From Nitrospirota bacterium (GTDB lineage: Bacteria; Nitrospirota; Nitrospiria; Nitrospirales; Nitrospiraceae), in NCBI GenBank assembly GCA_030645475.1, contig JAUSMA010000069.1, forward strand, positions 62,001 through 126,000: 64,000 nucleotides of DNA. The letters are read 5' to 3'. Positions 21,954 to 27,371 of this stretch are shown here, piece after piece. How positions within the stretch are numbered: the first letter of the stretch is position 1; every line of letters starts with the position of its first letter. Both the position numbers and the translations under genes were made by a program. Below the pieces are notes generated by a model that was not told where the DNA came from, did not search any database, and saw only the letters and a list, made by a program, of their open reading frames with translations.

Positions 21954-22028
21954 TGGAGCGGGAAACGAGATTTGAACTCGCGACCCTCGCCTTGGCAAGG
22001 CGATGCTCTACCACTGAGCTATTCCCGC
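21954..22028 (-). tRNA. tRNA-Gly (GCC)
   Basis: On the minus strand a 75-base cloverleaf reads from GCGGGAA (22028-22022) to CCA (21956-21954). The acceptor stem GCGGGAA/TTCCCGC is perfect. The anticodon loop is TTGCCAA with anticodon GCC (Gly). The T arm has GAGTTCAAATC, and the 3' CCA is encoded. It lies about 350 bp upstream of the nxr leader on the opposite strand. Confidence 0.96.
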
Positions 22029-22111
22029 CCAATCACAGTCGGTGCAAGGGGTGGGATTCTACTGAGTAGGAACGAGCCTGTCAAGCGACCAGAACAACAT
22101 CGTTCTTCCTC

Positions 22112-22157
22112 CGTTACCTTCGTTACAATCACTCTGAAGTGCTACCGAAAGGTAACG
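22112..22157. repeat. inverted repeat upstream of the nxr region
   Basis: CGTTACCTT (22112-22120) is matched by AAGGTAACG (22149-22157), nine perfect base pairs separated by 28 bases. It lies between tRNA-Gly and nxrA. It could be an operator for a dimeric regulator or part of a structured transcript; the sequence does not decide which. Confidence 0.35.
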
Positions 22158-22290
22158 CTCGATTTATTCATGCAAAGCATTGATTTATTAGGAATTGGTA
22201 AATGTCGGTAGCTCGTGGTTGAGAATGTGATACGGCAAGTACCCACATGCGAATATCCGTCGCGATTTAAATAGCTAATAAAATGTAATA

Positions 22291-22318
22291 TTTATATTAT
22301 TTTCCATCAACTTATACT
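22291..22318 (+). promoter_or_regulatory. candidate sigma-70 promoter for nxrAB
   Basis: TTTATA (22291-22296), a 16-bp spacer and TATACT (22313-22318) lie in the most AT-rich stretch of the window. Transcription from here would start near 22325 and would include the leader ORF with its ribosome binding site. Confidence 0.35.
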
Positions 22319-22349
22319 GATTTTCTTCAGACGGATTGTTTTCAGGGTT

Positions 22350-22365
22350 TGGTGCGAATATTGCG
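22350..22365 (+). promoter_or_regulatory. candidate sigma-54 promoter for nxrAB
   Basis: TGGTGCG-N4-TTGCG fits the sigma-54 -24/-12 consensus (TGGCACG-N4-TTGCA), with the invariant GG (22351-22352) and GC (22363-22364) separated by exactly 10 bases. The predicted start is near 22376, giving a leader of about 180 bases for nxrA that would begin at the end of the AGGAGG of the small leader ORF. Confidence 0.45.
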
Positions 22366-22382
22366 AACTTAGGAGGCCCATG

Positions 22383-22511
22383 ATGCCTGGCATTCATAAT
22401 AAATCGACAAGTTCGGCCGATACGTCGTTCGAAAACTATTCGATTATTCTGTTTTCTTGCATCGCTCTGAAGGAAGGGGGGTGGTCTGAACTTTCCGCTG
22501 TGCGTCAGTGA
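22383..22511 (+). CDS. short leader ORF upstream of nxrA
   Basis: A 42-codon ORF (MPGIHNKSTSSADTSFENYS..., ending AVRQ) starts at ATG 22383, with a perfect AGGAGG at 22371-22376, six bases upstream. A second in-frame ATG directly precedes it (22380). It ends 47 bases before nxrA. The ribosome binding site context CTTAGGAGG is the same as that of nxrA. The peptide has a modest hydrophobic segment (SIILFSCIAL) and no recognised family. It may be a regulatory leader peptide or a small protein. A 6-bp hairpin (22520-22535) sits between its stop and the nxrA ribosome binding site. Confidence 0.4.
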   Translation: MPGIHNKSTSSADTSFENYSIILFSCIALKEGGWSELSAVRQ

Positions 22512-22558
22512 AGTCGCGTGGGCTTATTGAAGCCCTCAACTCTTAGGAGGTGTCACCA

Positions 22559-25500
22559 ATGTTTTTGTCACGTAGGCAGTTCTTAAAAGTCTCCGTGGGA
22601 ACCGTCGCCGCCGTCGCGGTCGCGGACAAAGTCCTGGCGTTGACCGCGCTTCAGCCGGTCATCGAAGTGGGCAATCCCTTGGGAGATTATCCGGATCGGT
22701 CGTGGGAGCGTGTCTATCACGACCAGTACCGATACGATTCGTCGTTTACCTGGTGTTGTTCTCCGAACGACACGCACGCCTGCCGCATCCGGGCCTTCGT
22801 CCGGAACGGTGTGGTCATGCGGGTCGAGCAGAACTATGACCACCAGACCTATGAAGATCTCTATGGCAACCGCGGGACGTTCGCGCACAACCCGCGCATG
22901 TGCTTGAAGGGGTTTACCTTCCATCGCCGCGTCTATGGCCCCTATCGCTTGAAGGGTCCCTTGATGCGGAAGGGCTGGAAGGAATGGATGGATGCTGGCT
23001 CACCGGAGCTGACGCCGGAAACGAAGCGGAAGTACAAGTTCGATAGCCGCTTCCTGGACGACATGCTGCGTGTGTCTTGGGACACGGCCTTCACCTATGC
23101 CGCCAAGGCGATGATCATCATTGCCACGCGGTACAGCGGTGAAGCCGGTGCCCGTCGTCTGCGCGAGCAGGGCTATGCGCCGGAAATGATCGAAATGATG
23201 AAGGGTGCGGGAACCCGGACCTTCAAGCATCGTGCGGGTATGCCGGTCCTCGGCATCATCGGCAAGATGGGCAACACCCGGATGAACGGCGGCGTCAACG
23301 CGTTGCTGGACACCTGGATTCGCAAAGTCAGTCCGGATCAGGCACAGGGCGGCCGTTATTGGTCGAACTACACCTGGCACGGCGACCAGAACCCCGCCCA
23401 CCCCTGGTGGTGCGGTGCCCAGGGTTCCGACATCGACCTCTCCGACATGCGCTTCTCCAAGCTGAACACCAGTTGGGGAAAGAACTTCGTCGAAAACAAG
23501 ATGCCGGAAGCGCACTGGAAGTTGGAATGTATCGAACGGGGCGCCCGGGTCGTGGTCATCACGCCTGAGTATAACCCCACCGCCTATCGTGCCGACTACT
23601 GGATGCCGTTACGGCCCGCGTCGGACGGCGCCATTTTCTTGGGTGCCATGAAGATCATCGTCGATGAGAATATGCACGACGTGGACTTCTTGAAGGGGTA
23701 TACCGATTCGCCGGTGCTCGTTCGTACGGACACCCTGCAGTTCCTCGATCCGCGCGATGTGGTGGCGGATTACAAGTTCCCGGACTTCTCGAAGAGCTAT
23801 TCGGGCCGAGTCCAGTCATTGAAGCCAGAGCAGGTTGAGCGGCTCGGCGGCATGATGGTCTGGGACCTGAACAAGAAGGCAGCTGTTCCGCTCCATCGTG
23901 AGCAGGTTGGCTGGCATTATCAGAACAGCGGTATTGACGCGGCCCTCACCGGGACCTACCGGGTGAAGTTGCTCAATGGCCGTGAAATTGACGCGATGCC
24001 GGTCTGGCAGATGTACTTGGTACACTTCCAGGATTACGATCTGGACACCTGTCATCAGATCTGCCGGACGCCGAAGGACCTCCTGGTCCGTTGGGCGCGT
24101 GACTCAGGTTCGATCAAGCCTGCCGCCATCCATAACGGCGAAGGTACGAACCACTATTTCCATCAGACCATCAATTCCCGCGGCGCCGCGATGGTGCTCA
24201 TCGTCACCGGCAACGTCGGGAAGTTCGGTACCGGGCAGCATACCTGGGCCGGTAACTACAAGGCTGGAACCTGGACGGCCACGCCTTGGTCCGGTGCTGG
24301 TATTGCCGTGCACACGGGTGAGGATCCATTCAACATCACGTTGGATCCGAACGCGCACGGGAAGGAAATCAAAACCAAGTCGTATTACTACGGCGAGGAA
24401 GTCGGTTACTGGAACCACGGCGACACCGCCCTGATCGTCAGCACCCCGAAGTACGGGCGCAAGGTGTTCACGGGTAAGACGCACATGCCGACCCCGAGCA
24501 AGTTCCGTTGGGTGGTCAACGTGAACGTGCTCAACAACGCCAAACACCATTATGACATGGTGCGTAACGTCGATCCGAACATCGAGACCCTGATCACTCA
24601 GGACATTGAGATGACCTCGGACGTGAACCACAACGATATCGCCTTCGCGGCGAACTCGTGGATGGAGTTCACCTATCCGGAAATGACCGTCACGGTTTCC
24701 AATCCGTGGGTGCAGATCTGGAAGGGCGGCATCCGGCCCTTGTACGACACGCGTAACGACCTCGATACCTTCGCAGGCGTGGCGGCCAAGTTGTCGGACA
24801 TGACCGGTGACAAGCGTATGCGCGATTACTTCAAGTTCGTTTACGAGAACCGCGTGGACGTCTATGCGCAGCGCATGCTCGATGCCTCCAGCACCTTCTA
24901 CGGCTACAGCGCAGACGTCATGCTGAAGTCGGAAAAGGGCTGGATGGTCATGGTGCGGACCTATCCGCGCACCCCATTCTGGGAAGAGACCAACGAGTCG
25001 AAGCCCATGTGGACGCGGACCGGCCGGTACGAAAATTACCGGACTGAGCCAGAGGCGATCGAATACGGCGAAAACTTCATCTCTCACCGTGAGGGCACGG
25101 AAGCGACACCGTATCTGCCGAACGCCATCATGACGAGCAACCCGTACGTCCGTCCGGACGACTACGGTATTCCGATCACGGCGCAGCACCATGACGACAA
25201 AACGGTGCGGAACATCAAGTTGCCGTGGCAGGAAATCAAGCGGCACAGCAACCCGTTGTGGGAGAAGGGGTACCAGTTCTACTGCGTCACTCCGAAGACC
25301 CGGCATCGGGTGCACAGCCAATGGTCGGTGAATGACTGGGTTCAGATTTACGAGTCGAACTTCGGCGATCCGTACCGCATGGACAAGCGGACGCCTGGTG
25401 TCGGCGAACACCAGTTGCACATCAACCCGCAGGCAGCGAAAGACCGCGGCATCAACGACGGCGACTACGTCTACGTAGACGGTAATCCGGTGGACCGGCC

Positions 25501-25996
25501 CTATCGAGGCTGGAAGCCTTCGGATCCGTACTATAAGGTGGCGCGCCTCATGATCCGCGCTAAGTACAACCCGGCCTATCCGTACCACGTGACGATGTCG
25601 AAGCACGCACCGTACGTGGCCACGCCGAAGTCGGTCAAAGGCCACGAGACGCGCCCAGACGGACGCGCCATCGCGGTGGACACCGGTTATCAGTCCAACT
25701 TCCGGTACGGGGCCCAACAGTCCTTTACCAGAAACTGGTTGATGCCGATGCACCAGACTGACTCGTTGCCGGGCAAGCATGCCATCGCTTGGAAGTTCAA
25801 GTGGGGCTATCAGGTCGACCACCATGCGATCAACACGGTGCCGAAGGAATGTCTCATCCGCATCACCAAGGCGGAAGACGGCGGCATCGGAGCTCGTGGT
25901 CCATGGGAGCCGGTCCGGACCGGATTTACACCGGGCCAAGAGAACGAGTTCATGATCAAGTGGCTCAAAGGCGAACACATCAAGATCAAGGTGTAA
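22559..25996 (+). CDS. nxrA: nitrite oxidoreductase alpha subunit
   Basis: This 1145-residue molybdopterin enzyme oxidises nitrite to nitrate and is the key energy enzyme of Nitrospira. A twin-arginine signal SRRQFLK at residues 4-10 sends it to the periplasm. The N-terminal Fe-S site reads C67-x3-D71-x3-C75 and then C115 (RMCLKG), with Asp in place of one Cys. The candidate Mo ligand Asp lies in TWHGDQNPAHPWW near residue 276, by comparison with NarG. The length matches Nitrospira NxrA. ATG 22559 has TAGGAGG eight bases upstream; an earlier in-frame start at 22550 would lie on the ribosome binding site. nxrB follows 85 bp on. Codons are strongly C/G-ending, as in highly expressed genes. Confidence 0.97.
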   Translation: MFLSRRQFLKVSVGTVAAVAVADKVLALTALQPVIEVGNPLGDYPDRSWERVYHDQYRYDSSFTWCCSPNDTHACRIRAFVRNGVVMRVEQNYDHQTYEDLYGNRGTFAHNPRMCLKGFTFHRRVYGPYRLKGPLMRKGWKEWMDAGSPELTPETKRKYKFDSRFLDDMLRVSWDTAFTYAAKAMIIIATRYSGEAGARRLREQGYAPEMIEMMKGAGTRTFKHRAGMPVLGIIGKMGNTRMNGGVNALLDTWIRKVSPDQAQGGRYWSNYTWHGDQNPAHPWWCGAQGSDIDLSDMRFSKLNTSWGKNFVENKMPEAHWKLECIERGARVVVITPEYNPTAYRADYWMPLRPASDGAIFLGAMKIIVDENMHDVDFLKGYTDSPVLVRTDTLQFLDPRDVVADYKFPDFSKSYSGRVQSLKPEQVERLGGMMVWDLNKKAAVPLHREQVGWHYQNSGIDAALTGTYRVKLLNGREIDAMPVWQMYLVHFQDYDLDTCHQICRTPKDLLVRWARDSGSIKPAAIHNGEGTNHYFHQTINSRGAAMVLIVTGNVGKFGTGQHTWAGNYKAGTWTATPWSGAGIAVHTGEDPFNITLDPNAHGKEIKTKSYYYGEEVGYWNHGDTALIVSTPKYGRKVFTGKTHMPTPSKFRWVVNVNVLNNAKHHYDMVRNVDPNIETLITQDIEMTSDVNHNDIAFAANSWMEFTYPEMTVTVSNPWVQIWKGGIRPLYDTRNDLDTFAGVAAKLSDMTGDKRMRDYFKFVYENRVDVYAQRMLDASSTFYGYSADVMLKSEKGWMVMVRTYPRTPFWEETNESKPMWTRTGRYENYRTEPEAIEYGENFISHREGTEATPYLPNAIMTSNPYVRPDDYGIPITAQHHDDKTVRNIKLPWQEIKRHSNPLWEKGYQFYCVTPKTRHRVHSQWSVNDWVQIYESNFGDPYRMDKRTPGVGEHQLHINPQAAKDRGINDGDYVYVDGNPVDRPYRGWKPSDPYYKVARLMIRAKYNPAYPYHVTMSKHAPYVATPKSVKGHETRPDGRAIAVDTGYQSNFRYGAQQSFTRNWLMPMHQTDSLPGKHAIAWKFKWGYQVDHHAINTVPKECLIRITKAEDGGIGARGPWEPVRTGFTPGQENEFMIKWLKGEHIKIKV

Positions 25997-26081
25997 GGGT
26001 CGCACAACTTTCACCGTGACGATGATGTATAGCTGATGAGATTCACGAATTAACTGATCATGACTACAAGGAGGATTGACA

Positions 26082-27371
26082 ATGCCTGAAGTGTATAACT
26101 GGCAACTGGGACGAAAGATGCTGTATCCCTACGAGGAACGGCATCCGAAGTGGCAGTTTGCCTTTGTGTTCAACATCAACCGGTGCTTGGCCTGTCAGAC
26201 CTGTTCGATGGCAGACAAGTCCACCTGGCTCTTCTCGAAGGGTCAGGAATACATGTGGTGGAACAACGTGGAAACCAAGCCGTACGGCGGGTACCCACAG
26301 TTCTACGATGTGAAGATCACCCAGCTCATCGAGCAGGTGAATCCGGGCGGCCAGGTGTGGAACGTCCGTGTCGGACGCAAGCACCATGCGCCGTACGGCG
26401 TGTTCGAAGGCATGACCATTTTCGACGCGGGCGCCAAAGTGGGCCAGGCGGCGATCGGGTACATTCCGACGGACCAAGAATGGCGGTTCGTGAATATCTA
26501 TGAAGACACGGCGACCTCGATGCGCGCCCTCGTGGAAGGCATCGACAAGACCGGGTTCTCACGGGACGAACCGTGGAAGATGACGGGCAGCAGTCTGCCG
26601 GAGCATGAAACGTTCTTTTTCTATCTCCAGCGGATTTGCAACCACTGCACGTATCCTGGCTGCTTGGCAGCCTGCCCGCGGAAGGCGATCTACAAGAGAC
26701 CCGAAGACGGGATCGTGCTGATCGACCAGAACCGGTGCCGCGGGTACAAGAAGTGCGTGGAGCAGTGCCCATTCAAGAAGCCGATGTATCGTGGAACCAC
26801 ACGCGTGTCTGAAAAGTGCATCGCATGTTATCCGCGCATCGAAGGTAAAGACCCGTTGACGGGCGGCGAGCCGATGGAAACGCGTTGTATGGCAGCCTGC
26901 GTCGGAAAGATCCGGATGCAGAGCCTGATGCGCATCGGCGAAGACGGCCTGTGGGCGGAAGACCGGTGGCACCCGCTCTACTACGCGATTCGCGTGGAGC
27001 AGGTGGCGCTTCCACTGTACCCACAGTGGGGCACCGAGCCCAACGGCTTCTACATCCCACCGCGGCACAGCCCTCGTGGCTATGCACGGCAGATGTTTGG
27101 CCCGGGCGTCGACAATGCCATCGAGAAGTATCTCGTGCCCAGCCGTGAGCTGTTGGCGGTCCTCCAGTTGTGGAGAGCCAGCCAGCAGATCATCTTCCGG
27201 TACGATGTCATTCCTGGTCCGAAAGTGTTTGAGACCCAGATCCACGGGAAGCGTTTCGAGATGTACAACGATACCGTGTTGGGCTTCAACAAGTCGGGCA
27301 AGGAAGTGGCGCGTATTCAGGTCGAAGAGCCGATCTACATTCGGCCGGCCGAGCGCGTAACCTGGCTGTAA
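26082..27371 (+). CDS. nxrB: nitrite oxidoreductase beta subunit
   Basis: This 429-residue electron-transfer subunit relays electrons from NxrA through four Fe-S clusters. Cysteine groups are CLACQTCSMAD (cluster I, fourth ligand position is Asp instead of Cys), CNHCTYPGCLAACP, CRGYKKCVEQCP, and CIACYP with the distal CMAACVGKIR. This follows the NarH pattern. There is no signal peptide, so export as a Tat hitchhiker with NxrA is expected. GGAGG lies just upstream of ATG 26082. No gamma subunit gene or chaperone is adjacent. The gene is widely used as a Nitrospira marker. Confidence 0.97.
   Translation: MPEVYNWQLGRKMLYPYEERHPKWQFAFVFNINRCLACQTCSMADKSTWLFSKGQEYMWWNNVETKPYGGYPQFYDVKITQLIEQVNPGGQVWNVRVGRKHHAPYGVFEGMTIFDAGAKVGQAAIGYIPTDQEWRFVNIYEDTATSMRALVEGIDKTGFSRDEPWKMTGSSLPEHETFFFYLQRICNHCTYPGCLAACPRKAIYKRPEDGIVLIDQNRCRGYKKCVEQCPFKKPMYRGTTRVSEKCIACYPRIEGKDPLTGGEPMETRCMAACVGKIRMQSLMRIGEDGLWAEDRWHPLYYAIRVEQVALPLYPQWGTEPNGFYIPPRHSPRGYARQMFGPGVDNAIEKYLVPSRELLAVLQLWRASQQIIFRYDVIPGPKVFETQIHGKRFEMYNDTVLGFNKSGKEVARIQVEEPIYIRPAERVTWL

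Follow-up and report, generated by a model that had tools for sequence, protein, structure and literature searches.

The nxrAB locus and its upstream region

The control of nitrite oxidoreductase (NXR) in nitrite oxidisers is poorly understood, and these organisms are hard to manipulate genetically. The locus analysed here raised the question of which promoter drives nxrAB and which regulator acts on it. A preliminary description of the window (the whole stretch of 64,000 nucleotides that was analysed) had placed a sigma-54 promoter match at 22350-22365. Comparative analysis indicated that this string is very probably the -24/-12 box of an enhancer-dependent sigma-54 promoter driving nxrAB; this degree of confidence applies to the promoter and not to the choice of its activator.

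Contig C69, to which the window belongs, is part of a 3.7 Mb Nitrospira genome (G000) with a single nxrA match. The identity of nxrA was secure, the matched protein 7b04 being the solved nitrite oxidoreductase subunit A, and the nxrB match fell below the curated cut-off. A tRNA-Gly (GCC) gene was observed at 21954-22028 on the reverse strand, in the gap that precedes the promoter region of nxrA. A search of 22100-22800 against Rfam gave no match above the gathering score.

Table 1. Features of the nxrAB locus, in window coordinates.
Feature	Position	Strand	Remarks
Activator-like site TGATACGGCAAGTACCCA	22228-22245	+	Imperfect dyad TGATAC / GTACCCA; constant spacing to box
Sigma-70-like TTTATA-N16-TATACT	22291-22318	+	Overlaps IHF-like element; judged a chance match
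A+T-rich element TTATTTTCCATCAACTTA, genus form TTANTATTCAATNACTTA (ATTCAA-N4-TTA)	22297-22314	+	Conserved distance to box
Sigma-54 -24/-12 box TGGTGCG-N4-TTGCG	22350-22365	+	GG-N10-GC unselected at 40/42 motif-anchored loci; near-invariant TATTGC core
Predicted transcription start	22376 (about ±2)	+	Inferred from -12 position and sigma-54 promoter geometry
Predicted nxrA mRNA 5' untranslated leader, about 183 nt	22376-22558	+	Predicted start to ATG
43-codon leader ORF, probably untranslated	22380-22511	+	Not conserved; frameshift indels
Leader hairpin GGGCTT-ATTG-AAGCCC	22520-22535	+	Just before nxrA ribosome binding site AGGAGG (22545-22550)
nxrA, nitrite oxidoreductase alpha subunit	22559-25996	+	Full-length match to 7b04, E = 0
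nxrB, nitrite oxidoreductase beta subunit	26076-27371	+	Adjoins nxrA; related to DMSO reductase type II iron-sulfur subunits

Direct reading of the forward strand at 22350-22365 gave TGGTGCGAATATTGCG, with GG at 22351-22352, GC at 22363-22364 and a TTGC-type -12 core, which confirmed the exact GG-N10-GC spacing that had been claimed. The box is 209 nt from the nxrA ATG (22559) and differs at three positions from the textbook sigma-54 consensus, TGGCACG-N4-TTGCW. When three mismatches were tolerated, 84 matches were observed in the whole window compared to 96 expected from shuffled sequences, and the box was therefore not credible from the window sequence alone. A lone string of this kind is not above chance; it is conservation that makes it significant.

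Conservation of the sigma-54 box

A protein search of 32 genomes of the genus yielded 37 distinct nxrA upstream regions, 23 of which carried the box, with the consensus TGGTGCGNATATTGCG. Since this 23-locus set had been chosen by the box, the test was reversed: loci were anchored on the upstream motif (T/C)GNTAC-N6-TANYCA and GG-N10-GC was then looked for downstream. The spacing was found 122-130 nt downstream of the motif (bin 120-131) in 40 of 42 family nxrA loci, which are related, so that these counts are not independent events. The 40 loci comprised 23/23 from the genus, in which the motif had been defined, and 17/19 of the family loci that were fetched later. The other 12-nt bins mostly had GG-N10-GC in 0-5 of the 42 loci; the exceptions were bins near the start codon (up to 14/42), which cover the leader hairpin, a structure that has this spacing in its own sequence. 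Flanking sequence differed in large part between the anchored loci. The combined motif-plus-box pattern was found in 7 of 120 genomes, with one match each, and was absent from the reversed control.

The preliminary description had proposed a comparison with the promoters of other nxrAB copies and had made its reading depend on the conservation of GG and GC at other nxrA loci; the comparison upheld that reading, the spacing being kept in the family at a fixed distance from the upstream motif. It had also proposed a check of the genome for rpoN and an enhancer-binding protein, and both were found. The rpoN gene was present in 31 of the 32 genus genomes (in G000, a PF04552 match at 1e-55), and approximately 21 sigma-54 activators (PF00158) were encoded in G000, with a GAFTGA-type loop seen; none of these lay within the window. 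Taken as sequence evidence, the family-wide GG/GC pair, the upstream site at a fixed distance, rpoN and the many activators strongly support a sigma-54 promoter. That the GG-N10-GC block is instead another kind of binding site, with nxrA transcribed from an undetected sigma-70 promoter, is extremely improbable: the exact ten-base spacing, the TTGC core, the fixed distance to the dyad and the presence of rpoN all fit sigma-54, and a second class of nxr promoters, described below, has its own fixed-distance GG-N10-GC in 7/7 loci without the same activator-like site.

Elements upstream of the box

In the window the activator-like dyad begins 122 nt ahead of the T in the -24 box, and the spacing between dyad and box was 122-129 nt across the 23 genus loci. 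The candidate site would lie, at a conserved spacing, some 148-131 bp ahead of the predicted start; for sigma-54 upstream activator sites a distance of 80-150 bp is typical. Within the 3.7 Mb genome its core pattern was matched exactly once, at nxrA. When up to two mismatches were allowed in a search of the whole genome for a larger regulon, 32 matches were obtained compared to 47 in the reversed control, and there was therefore no sign of such a regulon. Matches to the activator-site pattern were also observed in other genomes on contigs that had no matched nxrA gene (G004:C27:72207, G013:C352:5352, G019:C198:2877 and G025:C204:11764); these four may be chance matches or further targets.

In most genus loci the A+T-rich element TTANTATTCAATNACTTA lies between the dyad and the box, 53-57 nt ahead of the -24 box. 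We take this element to resemble the IHF consensus; the window copy was weak (12/16).

The observed arrangement suggests the following mechanism. Sigma-54 RNA polymerase would bind the box as a closed complex and an NtrC-type activator would bind the dyad. The IHF-like element would bend the DNA, so that the activator could touch the polymerase and the promoter melt. In sigma-54 promoters transcription starts about 12 nt past the GC; here it would begin near 22376 and produce an untranslated leader whose terminal hairpin precedes the ribosome binding site of nxrA. This arrangement suggests that nxrAB expression depends on a dedicated activator protein and not on a housekeeping promoter of the ordinary kind.

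The sigma-70 candidate and the leader ORF

The preliminary description had also proposed that two promoters could be in use, with a sigma-70 promoter at 22291-22318 giving mRNA with a translated leader and the sigma-54 promoter giving mRNA without one. Both candidates exist in the sequence, and a TAGGAGG (22370-22376) precedes the ATG of the leader ORF. The predicted sigma-54 start lies inside this TAGGAGG, with the leader ATG (22380) at +5, so that the ORF would have no Shine-Dalgarno sequence if transcription starts at 22376. The geometry thus agrees with the earlier suggestion that a start at this point would exclude the ribosome binding site of the leader ORF.

The remainder of the proposal was not supported. 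The scan for sigma-70 promoters found three pairs, including that at 22291-22318, compared to 1.1 ± 0.9 in shuffled sequences. Of 49 loci with a sigma-54 box, only 5 had a sigma-70-like pair anywhere in the preceding 110 nt, and the window alone had one at this place. The -35 and -10 hexamers were not kept in relatives, and they overlap the conserved IHF-like element; the sigma-70 candidate was judged a chance match.

The leader ORF fared similarly. Many relatives lacked it or had only a short or unrelated ORF, and the peptides were dissimilar between clades. Substitutions at codon positions 1, 2 and 3 numbered 6, 9 and 5, respectively, when the three closest relatives were summed, which gives no third-position bias, and indels of 4 and 7 nt broke the frame among the closest relatives. 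An ORF of at least 30 codons was present in 22/49 leaders compared to 10% in shuffled sequences, an excess that is weak evidence, given the relatedness of the loci and a shuffle that preserves base composition only. On these sequence comparisons the leader ORF is probably not a translated gene, and a role as a leader peptide or in attenuation was not supported, as there was neither a conserved frame nor a coding signature. The switch between two promoters is probably wrong, and its alternating use of sigma-70 and sigma-54 starts was judged very unlikely.

The predicted leader was 115-204 nt long in the other loci of the window's promoter class (class 1). The leader hairpin was found again in many loci (for example L027, L160, L161 and L163), its stem differing in sequence; it may serve to stabilise the transcript or to govern translation.

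Candidate activators

Three activators were common to G000 and the small genomes G001 and G029, namely the L051 type (activator A), the NtrX-like L053, and L055. Activator A is a single-copy response regulator (G000:C15:25493-26929) encoded with a dCache-HAMP-PAS histidine kinase. In the six genomes read (G000, G029, G001, G002, G020 and G092), the neighbours of the pair encode an nxrC-like protein (PF09459), a TorD-like chaperone (PF02613), a WD40 protein and a ferredoxin whose start is Tat-like, so that activator A is syntenic with the nxrC-like, TorD-like and ferredoxin genes. A strong match to activator A was present in 112 of 120 family genomes; in G002 its gene and nxrA were approximately 10 kb apart, and in several others it lay within 12-41 kb of an nxrA gene. 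The nxrC-like cluster adjoining activator A was searched for class-1 promoters and gave scattered partial matches and no matching box-and-motif pair.

An attempt to narrow the candidates by their absence from particular genomes was discarded. The gaps in G017, G093 and G101 were contig ends, falling inside activator A in the first genome and inside the kinase in the other two, and G081, which had no match to activator A, also had no neighbouring secF.

Conservation does not single out activator A, because orthologues of L053 and L055 were also present in the reduced genomes G001, G029 and G093. These genomes carry class-1 nxr promoters, and L053 and L055 each have their kinase next to them. 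It is quite possible, with the chances slightly below even, that the same sigma-54 promoter answers to a different activator, most likely the L055 type or L053 with its NtrY-like kinase; this alternative contests only the activator and not the promoter. Neither candidate showed a link to nxr genes in the G000 neighbourhoods that were examined, whereas activator A sits in the nxrC-like neighbourhood and comes close to nxrA in other genomes. Activator A is favoured because the pair is kept beside the nxrC-like, TorD-like and Tat-ferredoxin genes; it appears to be the likeliest activator of nxrAB, with about an even chance of being the right one.

A second class of nxr promoters

Seven genus loci (L026, L027, L028, L032, L040, L042 and L045) had a second type of promoter (class 2), with the upstream motif GCATATNNNCATATTC. 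A GG-N10-GC (such as TGGCAACTCTCTTGCA) was located 132-134 nt from this motif in all seven. Class 2 therefore resembles the window promoter in combining GG-N10-GC with an upstream motif at a fixed distance, but differs in the motif itself and in having an activator gene close upstream, a response-regulator activator gene being located directly upstream in G020 and G027. Sigma-54 response-regulator activators were noted directly upstream of class-2 nxrA in L087 (10243-12048, forward strand) and L094 (716-2221, reverse strand). Neither class of promoter was found in seven genus nxrA upstream regions (L038, L022, L011, L029, L036, L043 and L044).

These two classes fit the published view (PMC6606698) that at least two regulatory systems serve the nxrAB copies of N. 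moscoviensis. The two classes also provide a sequence rule by which metagenomic nxr copies can be sorted into two regulatory classes.

Comparison with known systems

The nxrAB promoter resembles the sigma-54 (RpoN) promoters of nif, gln and nor genes in having a -24/-12 GG-N10-GC, an upstream dyad and, between them, an A+T-rich element that may be IHF-like. Unlike those promoters, it would drive the enzyme central to energy metabolism in a nitrite oxidiser, its box consensus departs from TGGCACG-N4-TTGCW and no known activator site was matched to its dyad.

Sigma-54 control of nxrAB has been proposed previously from neighbouring regulator genes in N. moscoviensis and Nitrospira KM1 (PMC6606698, PMC7522533), and sigma-54-dependent regulators near some nxrAB copies were reported in the N. 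moscoviensis transcriptome (PMC6606698). In the text searched, regulators are named rather than promoters or activator sites. In contrast to the N. moscoviensis and KM1 copies, the window nxrAB has no adjoining regulator, and the candidate activator is located beside the nxrC-like cluster. No published nxr sigma-54 promoter or activator site was found in the papers searched, which came mostly from outside the subscription literature and which themselves cite Lucker 2010 and Koch 2015 on this point.

A broader reading can be put forward only tentatively, and the chances are somewhat against it. Across the family there may be a dedicated, nearly single-target sigma-54 regulon. A two-component pair encoded with the NXR accessory genes would sense a signal through its Cache domain, perhaps nitrite or nitrate, and would activate nxrAB alone; the second nxr set would answer to a different sigma-54 activator. 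With a conserved promoter, an activator-like site and a named two-component candidate, the control of NXR becomes testable in vitro or in a surrogate host.

During the comparison, two nxrA reading frames were found to be interrupted, as assembled, by a frameshift or stop (G003:C15:82966-86401 and G074:C9:101437-104872); each may represent a pseudogene or a sequencing error.
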